64,000 nt of DNA. Source: Pseudanabaena sp. Chao 1811 (GTDB taxonomy: Bacteria > Cyanobacteriota > Cyanobacteriia > Pseudanabaenales > Pseudanabaenaceae). Location of the stretch: the NCBI RefSeq assembly GCF_027942295.1, contig NZ_CP101416.1, forward strand, positions 1,054,001 to 1,118,000, given 5' to 3'. This document shows positions 3,789 through 9,000 of this stretch, in pieces. Below the pieces are notes generated by a model. It saw only the letters and a program-made list of their open reading frames with translations, had not been told where the DNA came from and ran no database searches. A program made the translations under genes and the position numbers. How positions within the stretch are numbered: the first letter of the stretch is position 1; each line of letters opens with the position of its first letter.

Positions 3789-4487
3789 ATGCAAAAAAGA
3801 ATTCCCATCAAGCTCCCCATCCCTAATCTTCTCAATAGCGCAACAAGAAGCCTAGCTGTCACTGCTATTACTGGCTACCAAAGATTTATCTCACCCTATA
3901 AAGGCTTTTCCTGCGCCCATCGTGTTCTTTATGGTTGTGAGTCCTGTTCACAATATTTTAAGCGAGTCATCTTAGAAGAGGGAATTTTCACCGCGATCGC
4001 CAATGCTAAGGGTAGATTTCAGGAATGTCGAGAGGCTAATGAAATCTTAAAAGTACGAAAAGCGAAATGCCGAGCTAGTCGTAAGTATTACACTAGTCGA
4101 TTAACCTCAAATTTTGTAGCGATTGAATCTGGAGAGTCTGACGATTCTGAACAGGAACCTGAAAATACTGATGGCACTCAAGACGGGCAAAATCCTGAAA
4201 ATACTAACGCGAAAAAACTAGGTGGCTCAAGATGGGAGAGGAAAGCGCGATCGCAAGTTAATAGTAATGGCAACAATAATAGTTGTGACTATGGTGGGCT
4301 TGATAATTGCTCTGATTGCGCTAACTGTACAGATGTGATTACGGACATTCCTAGTGACTGCATCAACAATCTCAATTGCGATAATGCCAACTGTCTATCA
4401 GGAATGGATTGCAGTGGACTAGATTGCGGTGCTTTAGATTGTAGTGGCTTAGACTGTGGTGCTTTAGATTGCGGTAGTTGTAGCTAA
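3789..4487 (+). CDS. yidD: YidD-like membrane protein insertion factor with cysteine-rich C-terminal tail
   Basis: Residues about 20-95 match the YidD (DUF37) family that assists YidC/Sec membrane insertion: ITGYQRFISPYKGFSC, a CESCSQY segment and FQECREAN correspond to the family's conserved RFISP, CSxY and CxP-like positions. Ordinary YidD proteins have 70-100 residues; this one has 232. A charged linker (105-160) leads to a tail with 13 cysteines in residues 166-231, ending in tandem SGLDCGALDC units. The tail could bind metal or form disulfides; neither is shown. An SD-like GGAGAG stands just before the ATG. The upstream region holds a triplicated motif. No signal peptide is obvious. The N-terminal assignment is good and the tail's role is unknown. 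Confidence 0.78.
   Translation: MQKRIPIKLPIPNLLNSATRSLAVTAITGYQRFISPYKGFSCAHRVLYGCESCSQYFKRVILEEGIFTAIANAKGRFQECREANEILKVRKAKCRASRKYYTSRLTSNFVAIESGESDDSEQEPENTDGTQDGQNPENTNAKKLGGSRWERKARSQVNSNGNNNSCDYGGLDNCSDCANCTDVITDIPSDCINNLNCDNANCLSGMDCSGLDCGALDCSGLDCGALDCGSCS
4410..4469 (+). repeat. Two tandem 30-bp units inside the yidD cysteine tail
   Basis: Two 30-base units (4410-4439 and 4440-4469), differing at a few third positions, encode the repeated SGLDCGALD-C segment. They show that the tail grew by in-frame duplication. Confidence 0.8.
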
Positions 4488-4538: not shown

Positions 4539-4655
4539 TTAACGTCATCTCGACGAAGGCGGAGAATGGTAAAAATCGCTAAGCGATTTTTACCATTCTC
4601 CGCCATTTGCGCGGCGCTTCGCGCCGCGCAAATGGCGTTATCGAACTCACGTTAA
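4539..4655. repeat. Composite two-hairpin intergenic repeat, copy R1 (complete)
   Basis: Between TTAACGT and ACGTTAA ends lie two hairpins: a perfect 22-bp stem at 4558-4604 with loop TAA, and a perfect 17-bp stem at 4601-4637 with loop TTC. They share CGCC at 4601-4604, so the full stems cannot both form. The tail TATCGAACTCACGTTAA recurs in other copies (R2 at 42400, R3 at 37859, R4 at 25753). It follows yidD and may also act as its terminator. Confidence 0.8.
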
Positions 4656-4865: not shown

Positions 4866-6476
4866 ATGTCTGTTGCAGAATTTCCTTGGCTTACAACAAT
4901 TCTTTTGTTTCCTCTAGTCGCTGCCTTTGCGATTCCTTTCATTCCAGACAAATACGGCAAGACCGTGCGATCGTACGCTGTGGGGGTAGGTTTTGTCGAA
5001 CTATCTTTAATCATTTACGCATTCTGGAGTCAATATAACCTGCATGAAGCAGCGTTCCAGATGTCTGAGACCTATGCTTGGATTCCTCAAATTGGTTTGA
5101 ATTTTTCCTTAGCGGTTGATGGTTTATCCATGCCGCTAATTTTGCTAACAGGTTTGATTACTACCCTTGCAATTTTTGCAAGTTGGAACGTTACTCAAAA
5201 GCCTCGCCTGTTCTACTTCTTGATGCTTTGCCTGTACAGCGCTCAGATTGGCGTATTTGCAGCTCAGGATCTGTTGCTATTCTTCTTCATGTGGGAATTA
5301 GAACTGATTCCTGTGTATTTGCTGATTTCGATTTGGGGAGGAGCTAAACGTCTTTACGCTGCAACCAAGTTTATTCTCTACACAGCATTAGGTTCGATTT
5401 TCATTCTTGTTGCTGGTTTAGCGATGGCATTCTATGGCGATGTCACCACCTTTAATCTATCGGAACTAGCCTTAAAGCAATATCCGATCGCGTTTGAGTT
5501 ACTCGCCTATGCAGGTTTCTTAATTGCCTTTGGTGTGAAGTTACCAATTTTTCCATTACATACATGGTTACCTGACGCTCACGGGGAAGCTTCTGCACCT
5601 GTGTCGATGGTCTTAGCAGGTGTTTTGCTAAAAATGGGGGGATATGCCTTAATCCGTTTCAATATTGAAATGTTACCCAATGCCCATGTTTACTTTGCGC
5701 CTTTGCTTGCTGTTTTAGGCGTAGTAGGTATTGTTTATGGAGCATTAGCCGCCTTCGCACAACAAAATCTCAAGCGTCGCCTAGCCTATTCCTCGATTTC
5801 TCACATGGGCTTTATCCTAGTGGGACTTGCATCCTTTAACGATCTTGGTGTTAGTGGTGCAGTATTGCAAATGCTTTCCCACGGTTTGATTGCAGGCGCA
5901 TTATTCTTCCTAGCAGGTGTCACCTACGATCGCACCCATACTTTAATGATGGACGAAATGGGTGGGATTGCCAAAATCATGCCTAAGGCTTTTGCCTTAA
6001 TGACCGCTTCGGCAATGGCTTCTCTCGCACTTCCAGGGATGAGTGGATTTGTAAGCGAATTGAAGATTTTCCTTGGTATTACCACCAGCGATGTTTATGC
6101 TTCTAACTTCAAGATTGTCATGATCTTCTTAGCGGCAGTTGGTGTGATTATTACCCCCATCTACTTACTCTCAACTTTGCGCCAAGTCTTTTACGGCAAT
6201 CCTAATCCAGCTTTGCACTTCGACAAATATGTTAGTGACGCTAAGCCTCGCGAGGTATTTGTTGCAGCTTGCTTGCTTGTACCAATTGTGGCGATCGGTT
6301 TGTATCCAAAGTTAGCAACCCAAACCTACGATGCCAAAACTGTAGCAGTTACAGAGCAAGCTCGTGATGCTTTTAGTTTAGTGGCTCAGACCAATCCACA
6401 TCTTTATTCATCAGGTTTCATCGCGCCCCAACTTCCACACACAACGACTCAATCTCTTTTAGGAATTGTCGAATAA
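4866..6476 (+). CDS. ndhD: NAD(P)H-quinone oxidoreductase chain 4 (NdhD)
   Basis: 536-residue proton-pumping subunit of thylakoid NDH-1, used in respiration and cyclic electron flow. It is hydrophobic throughout, with about 14 membrane helices. Family marks seen are [18 protein letters not shown] (the conserved Glu of helix 5), [20 protein letters not shown] with its pumping-channel lysine and histidine, and [18 protein letters not shown]. Length and motifs match the NdhD1/D2 type of the NDH-1L complex better than the CO2-uptake NdhD3/D4 type, though that split is inferred. The start ATG gives the usual [11 protein letters not shown]-like N-terminus. It stands alone, with its own promoter region and terminator, and is not joined to ndhF or other ndh genes here. 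Confidence 0.95.
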
Positions 6477-6499
6477 CTCATAAATTCTGCACAGATTAC

Positions 6500-6524
6500 A
6501 AAAGGAGCGCTAAGCGCTCCTTTT
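6500..6524 (+). terminator. Terminator after ndhD
   Basis: AAAAGGAGCGC, loop TAA and the complementary arm ending in TTTTT stand 23 bp after the ndhD stop. Confidence 0.85.
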
Positions 6525-6599
6525 TACTTTTGAAAACCCTTACTGGTTTTATTTTTTAATTCACAAACAAAAGTGTTGTCGCTCTTTCGTAAATTGGTA

Positions 6600-8483
6600 T
6601 TAGGCTGTTTCAATTCTTAAAGAGCGTGGCTGTCCCCAAATAATCTTTTCATGGGTATAGACCACCATCCCCGGTTTTGAACCTTTGGGCTTGAACACAT
6701 ATTTGGGATTAGTACAGACCACAGGCACTTGATCACTTTGACGCGCTCGACTGTAATAGGCAGCATAGTCGGCAGCAACTTGGAGATCTTGGTCATCGGC
6801 GATCGCACCTGCGGGTAAACGTAGCAACACATGGCTACCAGAGATTTCTTGAGCATGGAGCCAGAGGTCATATTCTCCTGCAATGCGGAAGGAAATTAAA
6901 TCATTTTGATAGTTATTGCGACCTACCCACACTTCAAAGCCATTGGGAGTTGTAAAGCGGTGACAATCGGGAATTTCGTCCTGCTTACCTTTATTACTTT
7001 TATTCTTGCTACCCTTATTATTTTTAGAATTTCCTTTTGCACGAGCCACATATTCGGCAGTCACCTTCAGATAGCCTTGTTGAGCTAGTTCCGCACGAAT
7101 TTCCTGTAAAGCCGAGAGTTCATTCTGTTCTAATAAACTAACAGCCGTGGCAACCTGCTCTAGATAGGCGATTTCCTGCTGCACAGATTCTAGTAAAGGT
7201 GCGATCGCAAGGGCAGCTCGTTTTTGCTTTTGATGTTTTTTGTAAAAGGACTGAGCATTTTGTGCCGCATTCTGAGTGGGATCGAGGGGAATCGTGATTA
7301 ATTCACTTGAATGGAAATCAGGAAGGGAAATCTCCTTCATCCCAATTTCCCAGAGGTGCAAATGCGCCATTAACAAATCAGCTTTGTCTTTAAAATCATC
7401 GGCTTGAGTCGAGAGTTGCAGCCGTTCGAGGAATTCCGCTTCCTTAAGACTTAACTTCCCTAACTGATTCTGAATTGCTTGACTAATCTGTTGGTGCAAC
7501 TGCTGAAAAGCAACCTGTTCCGTTTGTTGAGAATAATAGCGATCGCAAAAATCATTCACTGATAAAGCATTACCCTCATCCCCCAACCCCTTCTCCCCCC
7601 TTGGGAGAAGGGGAGTCAAAATATTATTCCCCTCTCCTGCGGGAGAGGGGCTAGGGGTGAGGGTCTTGTCCCCCTCTCCCCCTTTGGGAGAGGGGCTAGG
7701 GGTGAGGGCATATCCTTTCCCTTCTAAACGTGGATAGAACTGTTTTTTATCAATGCAGGTCAGCCAAATTTGCCAAGCCCGATAGAGAGATTCCCATTCA
7801 GCGAGAGTTAAATCTACAACGTTCTTGTCGCCATGAATATCCGCGATCGCCAACAGCGATCGCACTAGCGACGAACTCACACCTCGATAATTGCTCAGTA
7901 AATTGCGCTTAATTTCCTTGGGAATCAAAATGAGGCGATCGCGCCATGCGTCAAAGGATTCATTTAAGCTAGGGATTGCTTCGAGGAGGGCAGGTGGTAA
8001 CTCATAGCGATCGCCTGTTTGGATCGGACGGACTCGCGACTGTTTACTATTTACTTGGTGGGCAGCCGTAACAATTTCGCGATCGGCATTCACCAAAATC
8101 GCGTTGCTATATTTGCCCATCACTTCTAGATAGAGATGCCACTGCACCACATCATCGGGACGTTTAGCAAATTGCAGATCAACTACCCGCTCCCAAGGGC
8201 TAGTTAGATGCACAGAGACAAGGGCAAATCCTGCAACTTGATGCAAAATCTGTTGGCTAAAGGTGAAAGTATCAGGCTGTCTTGGTGGTGGCGCACTAAG
8301 GTGAAGTCTCGCTGCCTGTGGATGCCATGACAGCAATAGCCACTGTTTCTTTTCTAAAGTTCGTAATTGTAAATGGATCGTATGGCGATCGCTTTGATGC
8401 ACCTGCTCTAACCTCGCAGGCACACAAGCTGTATTTAGCTCATGGGTCAAAGCCACAAGTGTTGTCAGGTCAGCAGGTTGCAT
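6600..8483 (-). CDS. NFACT-family protein (RqcH/Rqc2-like ribosome quality-control factor)
   Basis: 627-residue protein of the NFACT (FbpA) family. Homologues bind stalled 50S-peptidyl-tRNA complexes and direct C-terminal Ala tailing. The N-terminal NFACT-N domain spans about 1-230, with WERVVDLQF and MGKYSNAILVN in the place of the family's ER and GRHSN motifs. A helical coiled-coil part (about 325-470) follows, then a lysine/asparagine-rich linker and the NFACT-R domain (about 515-625) with DLWLHAQEISGSHVLLR and FKPKGSKPGMVVYTHEK. Between residues about 255 and 303 sits a 48-residue proline/glycine-rich insert encoded by a palindromic DNA repeat (own entry). The frame stays open through it, so the gene is probably functional. 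The downstream neighbour is ndhD, convergent. Confidence 0.88.
   Translation of the reverse strand: MQPADLTTLVALTHELNTACVPARLEQVHQSDRHTIHLQLRTLEKKQWLLLSWHPQAARLHLSAPPPRQPDTFTFSQQILHQVAGFALVSVHLTSPWERVVDLQFAKRPDDVVQWHLYLEVMGKYSNAILVNADREIVTAAHQVNSKQSRVRPIQTGDRYELPPALLEAIPSLNESFDAWRDRLILIPKEIKRNLLSNYRGVSSSLVRSLLAIADIHGDKNVVDLTLAEWESLYRAWQIWLTCIDKKQFYPRLEGKGYALTPSPSPKGGEGDKTLTPSPSPAGEGNNILTPLLPRGEKGLGDEGNALSVNDFCDRYYSQQTEQVAFQQLHQQISQAIQNQLGKLSLKEAEFLERLQLSTQADDFKDKADLLMAHLHLWEIGMKEISLPDFHSSELITIPLDPTQNAAQNAQSFYKKHQKQKRAALAIAPLLESVQQEIAYLEQVATAVSLLEQNELSALQEIRAELAQQGYLKVTAEYVARAKGNSKNNKGSKNKSNKGKQDEIPDCHRFTTPNGFEVWVGRNNYQNDLISFRIAGEYDLWLHAQEISGSHVLLRLPAGAIADDQDLQVAADYAAYYSRARQSDQVPVVCTNPKYVFKPKGSKPGMVVYTHEKIIWGQPRSLRIETA
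7572..7710. repeat. In-frame palindromic repeat array inside the NFACT gene
   Basis: Three related units of the type CCCTCACCCCTAGCCCC with a CTCTCCC..GGGAGAG hairpin are inserted in tandem without breaking the frame. They encode the residues LTPSPSPKGGEG, LTPSPSPAGEG and LTPLLPRGEKG. This kind of repeat is widely scattered in cyanobacterial genomes, mostly between genes. Confidence 0.85.
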
Positions 8484-8576
8484 GGTTCTAGAATCTCATC
8501 TCATAAAATAGAGTGGGCGCAATGCACCCACTCTAGGCTGATAATAAAAGGAGGCAGCATTTCCCCCAGTTGGCAA

Positions 8577-8891
8577 TTATTTGTCAGGATCGAGGCGGGG
8601 TCGGATTTGTTCAGCTTCAGGACAATCATCGGACACCAATAAATCGCTGGATGACATCCCTGTTTTTGTGACCGACGATAGTCTTTGCGTTACCGCACCA
8701 ATACTCTCTAATCTGACCATTTCTTCCCAAGAGCAAACTTCATCTTCGTCTTCAGTCTCGTAACGAATTGTTACTACGTCTCCTTCAATATCTAGTATTC
8801 TGGCTCTTTCTAGCCAACGTCCCTGATCCCTCAGGTAAATCCAAACATCGCTCTTGGCTTCACAAAGTTGATATATTTTGCGATGTAGCAT
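8577..8891 (-). CDS. Small conserved cyanobacterial protein of unknown function
   Basis: 104 residues, acidic, no signal peptide or membrane segment. The first 70 residues (MLHRKIYQLCEAKSDVWIYL, then WLERARILDIEGDVVTIRYETEDEDEVCSWEEMVRLESIGAVTQ split by an arginine) look like a small beta-rich fold resembling a KOW/SH3-like barrel, and I recall similar proteins across cyanobacteria (possibly DUF6679). The last 30 residues look disordered. Upstream of its start lies a terminator that separates it from the vWA-OmpA gene, so it is transcribed alone. Downstream, 93 bp separate it from the NFACT gene on the same strand and a short operon with that gene is possible. No function can be given. Confidence 0.7.
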   Translation of the reverse strand: MLHRKIYQLCEAKSDVWIYLRDQGRWLERARILDIEGDVVTIRYETEDEDEVCSWEEMVRLESIGAVTQRLSSVTKTGMSSSDLLVSDDCPEAEQIRPRLDPDK

Positions 8892-9000
8892 TCGCTTATG
8901 TCCTCAGGGTTACATAATTTTTAAGGTTAGAGCATACCTCAAAAGGTAAAAAAACTAACCATTACTATTGTAAACGACTACACAAGCATTTAAGACATAA

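Follow-up and report, generated by a model that had tools for sequence, protein, structure and literature searches.

A second YidD-like gene in Pseudanabaena encodes a conserved cysteine-rich tail

Members of the YidD domain family carry three conserved cysteines according to Pfam. For Escherichia coli, passages in PMC3573977 and PMC8082313 describe YidD as an insertion factor supporting YidC and list it as a partner of SecYEG, and a passage in PMC10502375 gives the gene order of the E. coli cluster as rpmH-rnpA-yidD-yidC. Here, we analyzed a YidD-like gene from the cyanobacterium Pseudanabaena sp. Chao 1811, which lies within a 64,000-nucleotide stretch of DNA that we refer to as the window. 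The gene stands outside an rpmH-rnpA-yidD-yidC cluster and is instead flanked by a P-type-ATPase-like and an NdhD-like open reading frame, both named from a reading of the sequence. We call its product YidD2, a name coined in this analysis. The gene and its parts, all on the forward (+) strand, are as follows.

3789..4487 (+): second YidD-like gene, encoding YidD2, 232 amino acids; an open frame with an orthologue in 26/26 genomes of the genus
3849..4052 (+): YidD domain, residues 21-88; matches to TIGR00278 and PF01809, predicted helices
4119..4283 (+): acidic linker without cysteine, residues 111-165; net charge -5, pN/pS of 0.61 (residues 105-164), low pLDDT
4284..4484 (+): cysteine-rich tail by composition, residues 166-232, 13 cysteines; pN/pS of 0.28, pLDDT below 50 at residues 176-232
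4407..4472 (+): 30-bp tandem repeat with 15-bp half units, coding for SGLDC/GALDC repeats; found by repeat search

Relationship of YidD2 to the ordinary YidD

The N-terminal part of YidD2 resembles E. coli YidD and the YidD family in several respects. In profile searches it exceeded the cut-offs of both TIGR00278 (residues 21-88, 74.1 bits, cut-off 40) and PF01809 (residues 22-83, 29.6 bits, cut-off 27), and the shared cysteines C42, C53, and C80 were invariant in 70 sequences, 7 of which were canonical domains. Residues 1 to 110 are basic (net charge +14), and no stretch was hydrophobic enough for a transmembrane helix (highest 19-residue mean, 0.30). AlphaFold2 run on 70 sequences predicted a helical domain, with block means of pLDDT between 83 and 95 for most blocks from residue 11 to 100 (block 31-40, 69), followed by a tail that is predicted to be disordered, with pLDDT below 50 from residue 176 on. 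The same program given 17 close sequences returned a poor model (mean pLDDT, 46.1). Searching by sequence for relatives of solved structure gave nothing meaningful for either the profile of the YidD2 branch (best E, 0.54) or the ordinary YidD of the window genome (best E, 0.43). Foldseek with the YidD2 model gave no match at E up to 0.001 in the PDB or in a viral library, and the best VIA-align row had a Z of 5.4, in the range which that tool calls common.

The window genome contains two places that match PF01809: an ordinary YidD of 93 amino acids (105.5 bits; G000:C1:2887651-2887851) and YidD2 (31.4 bits). Since the genome thus has its ordinary YidD elsewhere, YidD2 is a paralogue. Several features separate it from the ordinary family members. 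Canonical domains carry CRFxPTCSxY, or a motif close to it, and then a GGYDPVP-like end, whereas proteins of the YidD2 type have SCS or GCSG in place of PTCS. The end RCHPxxxGGYDPVP, or a near form, was found in 31 canonical proteins, the window genome's own included, and is absent from YidD2; its loss means that the activity of YidD2 may have changed. The tails of those 31 ordinary proteins hold a median of 0 and a maximum of 3 cysteines, in contrast to the long cysteine-rich tail of the 232-residue YidD2, which is extra to the ordinary copy.

A tree of 99 domain sequences over 74 columns divided 21 canonical rows from 78 rows of the second type, with support of 100/100 for the split. The root lay 2.89 changes per column from each side, a distance for which the tool warned of few columns and of long branches meeting. 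As judged from these sequence comparisons, YidD2 is a second, deeply diverged paralogue rather than an unusually extended version of the genome's YidD. The initial annotation had described the gene as a YidD fused to a cysteine-rich tail. The tail of that description is real, conserved, and selected (see below), while the description itself proved incomplete, since there is a separate YidD-like branch in which cysteine-rich C termini are common. That YidD2 belongs to a separate branch with a functional tail is, in our judgment, very probable.

Composition and conservation of the tail

The tail comprises 67 residues with 13 cysteines and a net charge of -12. If cysteine is assumed to have a frequency of 1%, the probability of at least 13 cysteines in 67 residues is about 1.5e-13. 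A direct count of composition over residues 166-232 thus agreed with the initial annotation, as did the 30-bp DNA repeat that it had reported, which we recovered at 4407-4472 with a period of 30, 2.2 copies, and 83% matches (a period of 15 was listed too). A Pfam search with residues 162-232 gave no match at E up to 1.

Two kinds of described protein invite comparison with this stretch. Metallothioneins are small cysteine-rich metal proteins, and the YidD2 tail resembles them in being acidic, rich in glycine and serine, disordered by prediction, and equipped with closely set cysteines; it differs in that the cysteine stretch is attached to a YidD domain, has no Pfam match, and binds metal only putatively. 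Pentapeptide repeat proteins (PF00805) share with the tail a five-residue period, often with leucine two positions before the cysteine, although the tail gave no match to that profile, has few repeats, and is predicted to be disordered.

We found exactly one copy of YidD2 in each of the 26 Pseudanabaena genomes, and all 26 copies lacked internal stops and stayed open into a tail with 10-18 cysteines (counted after residue 100). A frameshift, or an assembly or stop error at the tail, is therefore unlikely, and no correction that would end the gene earlier, as the initial annotation had considered, is indicated. Among 17 aligned orthologues, the domain had 4 invariant cysteine columns and the tail had 6, and both TGC and TGT were used at all 10. 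Within the tail, cysteine was the best-kept residue, with a mean identity of 0.92 over 12 columns. In the same 17 orthologues pN/pS was 0.12 for the domain, 0.61 for the linker, and 0.28 for the tail, values that are rough since pS (0.60-0.71) was near saturation. From these sequence comparisons, we conclude that the tail is under purifying selection.

This pattern bears on two alternative explanations. The tail could be a neutral repeat expansion without function, and the presence of the 30-bp repeat, together with a number of repeat units that varies, is what such an expansion would predict. However, the 26 of 26 open frames with 10-18 cysteines, the exchange of synonymous cysteine codons at all 10 invariant columns, and the lower pN/pS of the tail relative to the linker largely contradict it, and we consider it very improbable. 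Alternatively, the YidD fold might have left its role in insertion and become a mere membrane anchor, with the tail serving as a membrane-tethered metal buffer or metallochaperone. The very long branch that separates YidD2 from ordinary YidD, the loss of the conserved end, the retention of an ordinary YidD in the same genome, and the strong conservation of the tail cysteines are all consistent with this explanation. Yet the domain is the most constrained part of the protein, beyond what a mere anchor would need, and we recognized no metal-resistance gene among those neighbors of the gene that could be identified (some of them). We regard this explanation as unlikely.

Distribution and neighborhood of the branch

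Of 292 genomes sampled across the phylum, a profile built for the branch detected YidD2 in 30, all of them in the class of the window genome. In family f7, which is probably Nostocaceae, the profile detected it in 127 of 217 genomes. This patchy presence indicates that YidD2 is dispensable in many genomes. Outside Pseudanabaena, 115 cyanobacterial loci yielded 119 domain rows; after duplicates were merged and L020 and L021 (same genus) were set apart, 113 loci remained. These were sorted into 80 of type A, 21 of type B, 6 of type C, and 6 others, and moving L029 from the others to type A gave 81 and 5. Type A is defined by at least 7 tail cysteines and is hence cysteine rich by definition, and the B and C loci are a chosen part of the f7 matches listed, further matches existing. 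L029, which lies beside chlP, has a frameshift before the tail and a cysteine-rich tail in another frame, owing either to a sequencing error or to its being a young pseudogene.

The three types have distinct C termini. In 80 type A proteins, 394 of the 769 cysteine spacings of 12 or less were equal to five, and 500 of 864 cysteines directly followed an aspartate. The 21 type B loci (L037, L038, L045, L046, L149-L157, L159-L165, and L168) encode proteins of about 100 residues whose end is strikingly uniform (CIVIPCCLPL or a close form), and the 6 type C loci encode a longer tail with 4 cysteines and a hydrophobic stretch. Some cyanobacterial members of the branch have just 2-4 cysteines after the domain. 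In the tree, for which 171 sequences had been thinned to 99 (Pseudanabaena from 17 to 9, type A from 79 to 34, type B from 21 to 12, and canonical from 31 to 21), the Pseudanabaena rows clustered with most type A rows at 97/76, and type A as a whole needed 4 changes. The initial annotation had proposed looking for the tail on YidD in other cyanobacteria, and we found it to be conserved, in all 26 Pseudanabaena genomes and in the type A loci beyond the genus.

The branch also extends to plasmids. A tblastn search of a plasmid collection with residues 1-104 returned 14 records (Deinococcus, 5; Vibrio, 4; Pseudomonas, 3; Calothrix, 1; Loktanella, 1), and a second search added one further Pseudomonas record, for a total of 15. 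Among the 12 records whose proteins were read, all 11 from outside the cyanobacteria had cysteine-rich ends, with 4-10 cysteines after the domain, and the Calothrix protein (plasmid AP018296) had 4 cysteines in a different kind of tail. Five Deinococcus plasmid proteins (L050, L054, L055, L056, and L060) had the almost identical end GVCCCGPLPIPFRCG. We also considered a phage origin of the domain and rejected it, as residues 1-104 had no match in a phage collection.

A further possibility is that the tail acts as a redox switch, in which reversible disulfides formed under light or oxidative stress would alter the activity or the partners of the domain. The many closely set thiols, in oxygenic phototrophs, make this conceivable. 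However, relatives with cysteine-rich ends occur in non-phototrophs (Deinococcus, Vibrio, and Pseudomonas), and the number and spacing of the tail cysteines vary (10-18 within the genus), which suits defined disulfides less well than it does metal binding or bulk thiols. We therefore think a redox switch improbable, to about the same degree as the metal buffer or metallochaperone.

The neighborhoods of the type A genes raised the question of a link to photosynthesis. The gene chlP was divergent and upstream in 64 of the 81 type A loci, in 63 of them at most 600 bp from the YidD2 domain, and an ATPase gene lay on the same strand no more than 500 bp downstream in 58 of the 81. Neither gene was found in the 27 type B and C loci, and chlP was absent from the 5 other loci; some loci stop at contig ends, with flanks of none to 6 kb, so that counts of missing neighbors are lower bounds. 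The loci linked to chlP fall under four family codes, f7, f11 (L030 and L032), f8 (L034), and f4 (L036). Profile matches confirmed four proteins as ChlP (TIGR02028, 717-746 bits, cut-off 505) and two ATPases as being of the sulfate-ABC type (TIGR00968, 435-436 bits, cut-off 343); all other calls were made by tblastn. In Pseudanabaena, an SdhA-like gene was downstream in 20 of 26 loci, with a fragment in one more, GUN4 was upstream in 5 of 26, and NdhD was downstream in 2 of 26, the window included; the SdhA-type and GUN4 identities are family (profile) matches.

These arrangements could mean that YidD2 is a photosynthesis-specific factor, acting with YidC in the cyanobacterial insertion of chlorophyll-binding proteins and tied to chlorophyll synthesis. 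The occurrence of chlP in 64 of 81 long-tailed loci, across four family codes, versus none of the 27 short-tailed or hydrophobic-type loci favors this explanation, as do the five GUN4 neighbors. Passages in PMC6175206 and PMC9066304 moreover describe an association of YidC with the chlorophyll synthase ChlG. However, as a control we examined 26 f7 genomes without YidD2, and chlP and the ATPase gene were still side by side in 9 of their 25 chlP loci. This adjacency shows that the neighbors need not act with YidD2, makes the neighborhood weak evidence, and lowers the probability of a role with chlorophyll proteins. YidD2 seems to sit in an old chlP-ATPase block from which it has been repeatedly lost. 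In the window genome, chlP is elsewhere than YidD2, the 12 kb surrounding chlP contain no relative of the ATPase gene, and GUN4 does not adjoin YidD2; GUN4 was found in 0 of the 81 long-tailed loci outside Pseudanabaena, and the branch is present in non-phototrophs. On balance we consider a photosynthesis-specific role improbable, slightly more so than a redox switch.

Several features of individual loci stood out in this survey. Among the control loci without YidD2, L250 retains a clear remnant of the YidD2 N terminus, and L227 gave a weak match. In one f7 genome (G064, 99% complete), a search at E 1e-100 gave no ChlP match, whereas the other 25 genomes searched did give one; its chlP may be disrupted or absent from the assembled sequence. 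Beside two cysteine-tailed members that lack chlP (L072 and L074) we noted a large TPR-like protein, at 6445-8916 on the reverse (-) strand in L072, where it matched HaaT, a TPR model from a RiPP system, weakly (30.6 bits, cut-off 1125). In the window, two adjoining perfect or near-perfect palindromes, at 4558-4604 and 4605-4633, lie between the YidD2 gene and the NdhD-like open reading frame. The first has a single exact occurrence in the genome, and the core of the second, GCGGCGCTTCGCGCCGC, occurs at four sites in the window (4611, 16988, 39661, and 42428).

The position of the ATPase gene suggested one more alternative, in which the tail would work at the level of RNA: a shortage of Cys-tRNA would stall ribosomes on the tail codons and thereby regulate the downstream gene of the sulfate-ABC type. 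Cysteine-responsive attenuators exist in mycobacteria and offer a precedent, and the ATPase gene is suitably placed, on the same strand and within 500 bp, in those 58 long-tailed loci. Nevertheless, the window genome and its genus keep the tail with other downstream genes, and 23 of 57 gaps between YidD2 and the ATPase gene (e.g., in L083 and L061) contain a TATA-like stretch and, after it, a conserved ACRGTAANCC. The ATPase gene may accordingly have its own promoter and leader, as this motif suggests. A run of five T was present in just 15 of the 57 gaps. RNA folds were examined for 12 gaps, and Rfam at the gathering threshold reported tRNAs only, in the window and in L061, L083, and L036. 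The attenuator model is weak on this gap evidence, and we rate a role in attenuation as very unlikely.

A possible role at the membrane insertion site

Having weighed these alternatives, we favor an explanation in which YidD2 is an accessory YidD-type protein, specialized and dispensable, that would act beside the ordinary YidD. Its basic helical domain (residues 1-110) would sit on the cytoplasmic side of the membrane, close to the site of Sec/YidC insertion, as reported for E. coli YidD, and its predicted disordered arm would act through thiols in the reducing cytoplasm. Given many closely set thiols in such a compartment, a thiophilic metal would be expected first and a redox switch next, so the arm would most likely bind a metal such as Zn or Cu(I), and it may thereby serve a subset of client membrane proteins or protect the insertion site. 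By analogy with the E. coli protein, we put the chance that YidD2 still acts at membrane-protein insertion at about even, and that of metal binding by the tail in the cell at slightly below that. The mechanism as a whole, a membrane-peripheral YidD-type accessory factor with a disordered, metal-binding thiol arm, is tentative. The missing RCHPxxxGGYDPVP end, the patchy distribution, the existence of short-tailed and tail-poor relatives, and the absence of a Pfam family for the tail count against it, and nothing in the YidD2 sequence favors metal over redox.

Titles and the openings of abstracts, which cover the literature incompletely, revealed no study of a cysteine-tailed YidD. The tail is a genuine trait of this YidD branch, conserved and under selection, and YidD2 looks like a true but uncharacterized protein type and not like an error. 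TIGR00278, an NCBI equivalog model, scores both branches above its cut-off, and the plasmid members carry YidD annotation; a distinct branch has thus been filed as the housekeeping factor. It is conceivable, although we would not expect it, that this second branch, which crosses phyla, places a thiol arm on a membrane-proximal domain and that in cyanobacteria it ties the insertion of certain membrane proteins, chlorophyll proteins perhaps among them, to metal or thiol status. The association of YidC with ChlG and the chlP and GUN4 neighbors make a role in chlorophyll-protein assembly worth testing, although the control genomes described above keep its probability low. If, next to the insertase, the arm does sense metal or thiol state, this would represent a new tie between the biogenesis of membrane proteins and metal or redox state, and the chlP-linked members would provide a handle on how cyanobacteria tune the assembly of chlorophyll proteins.
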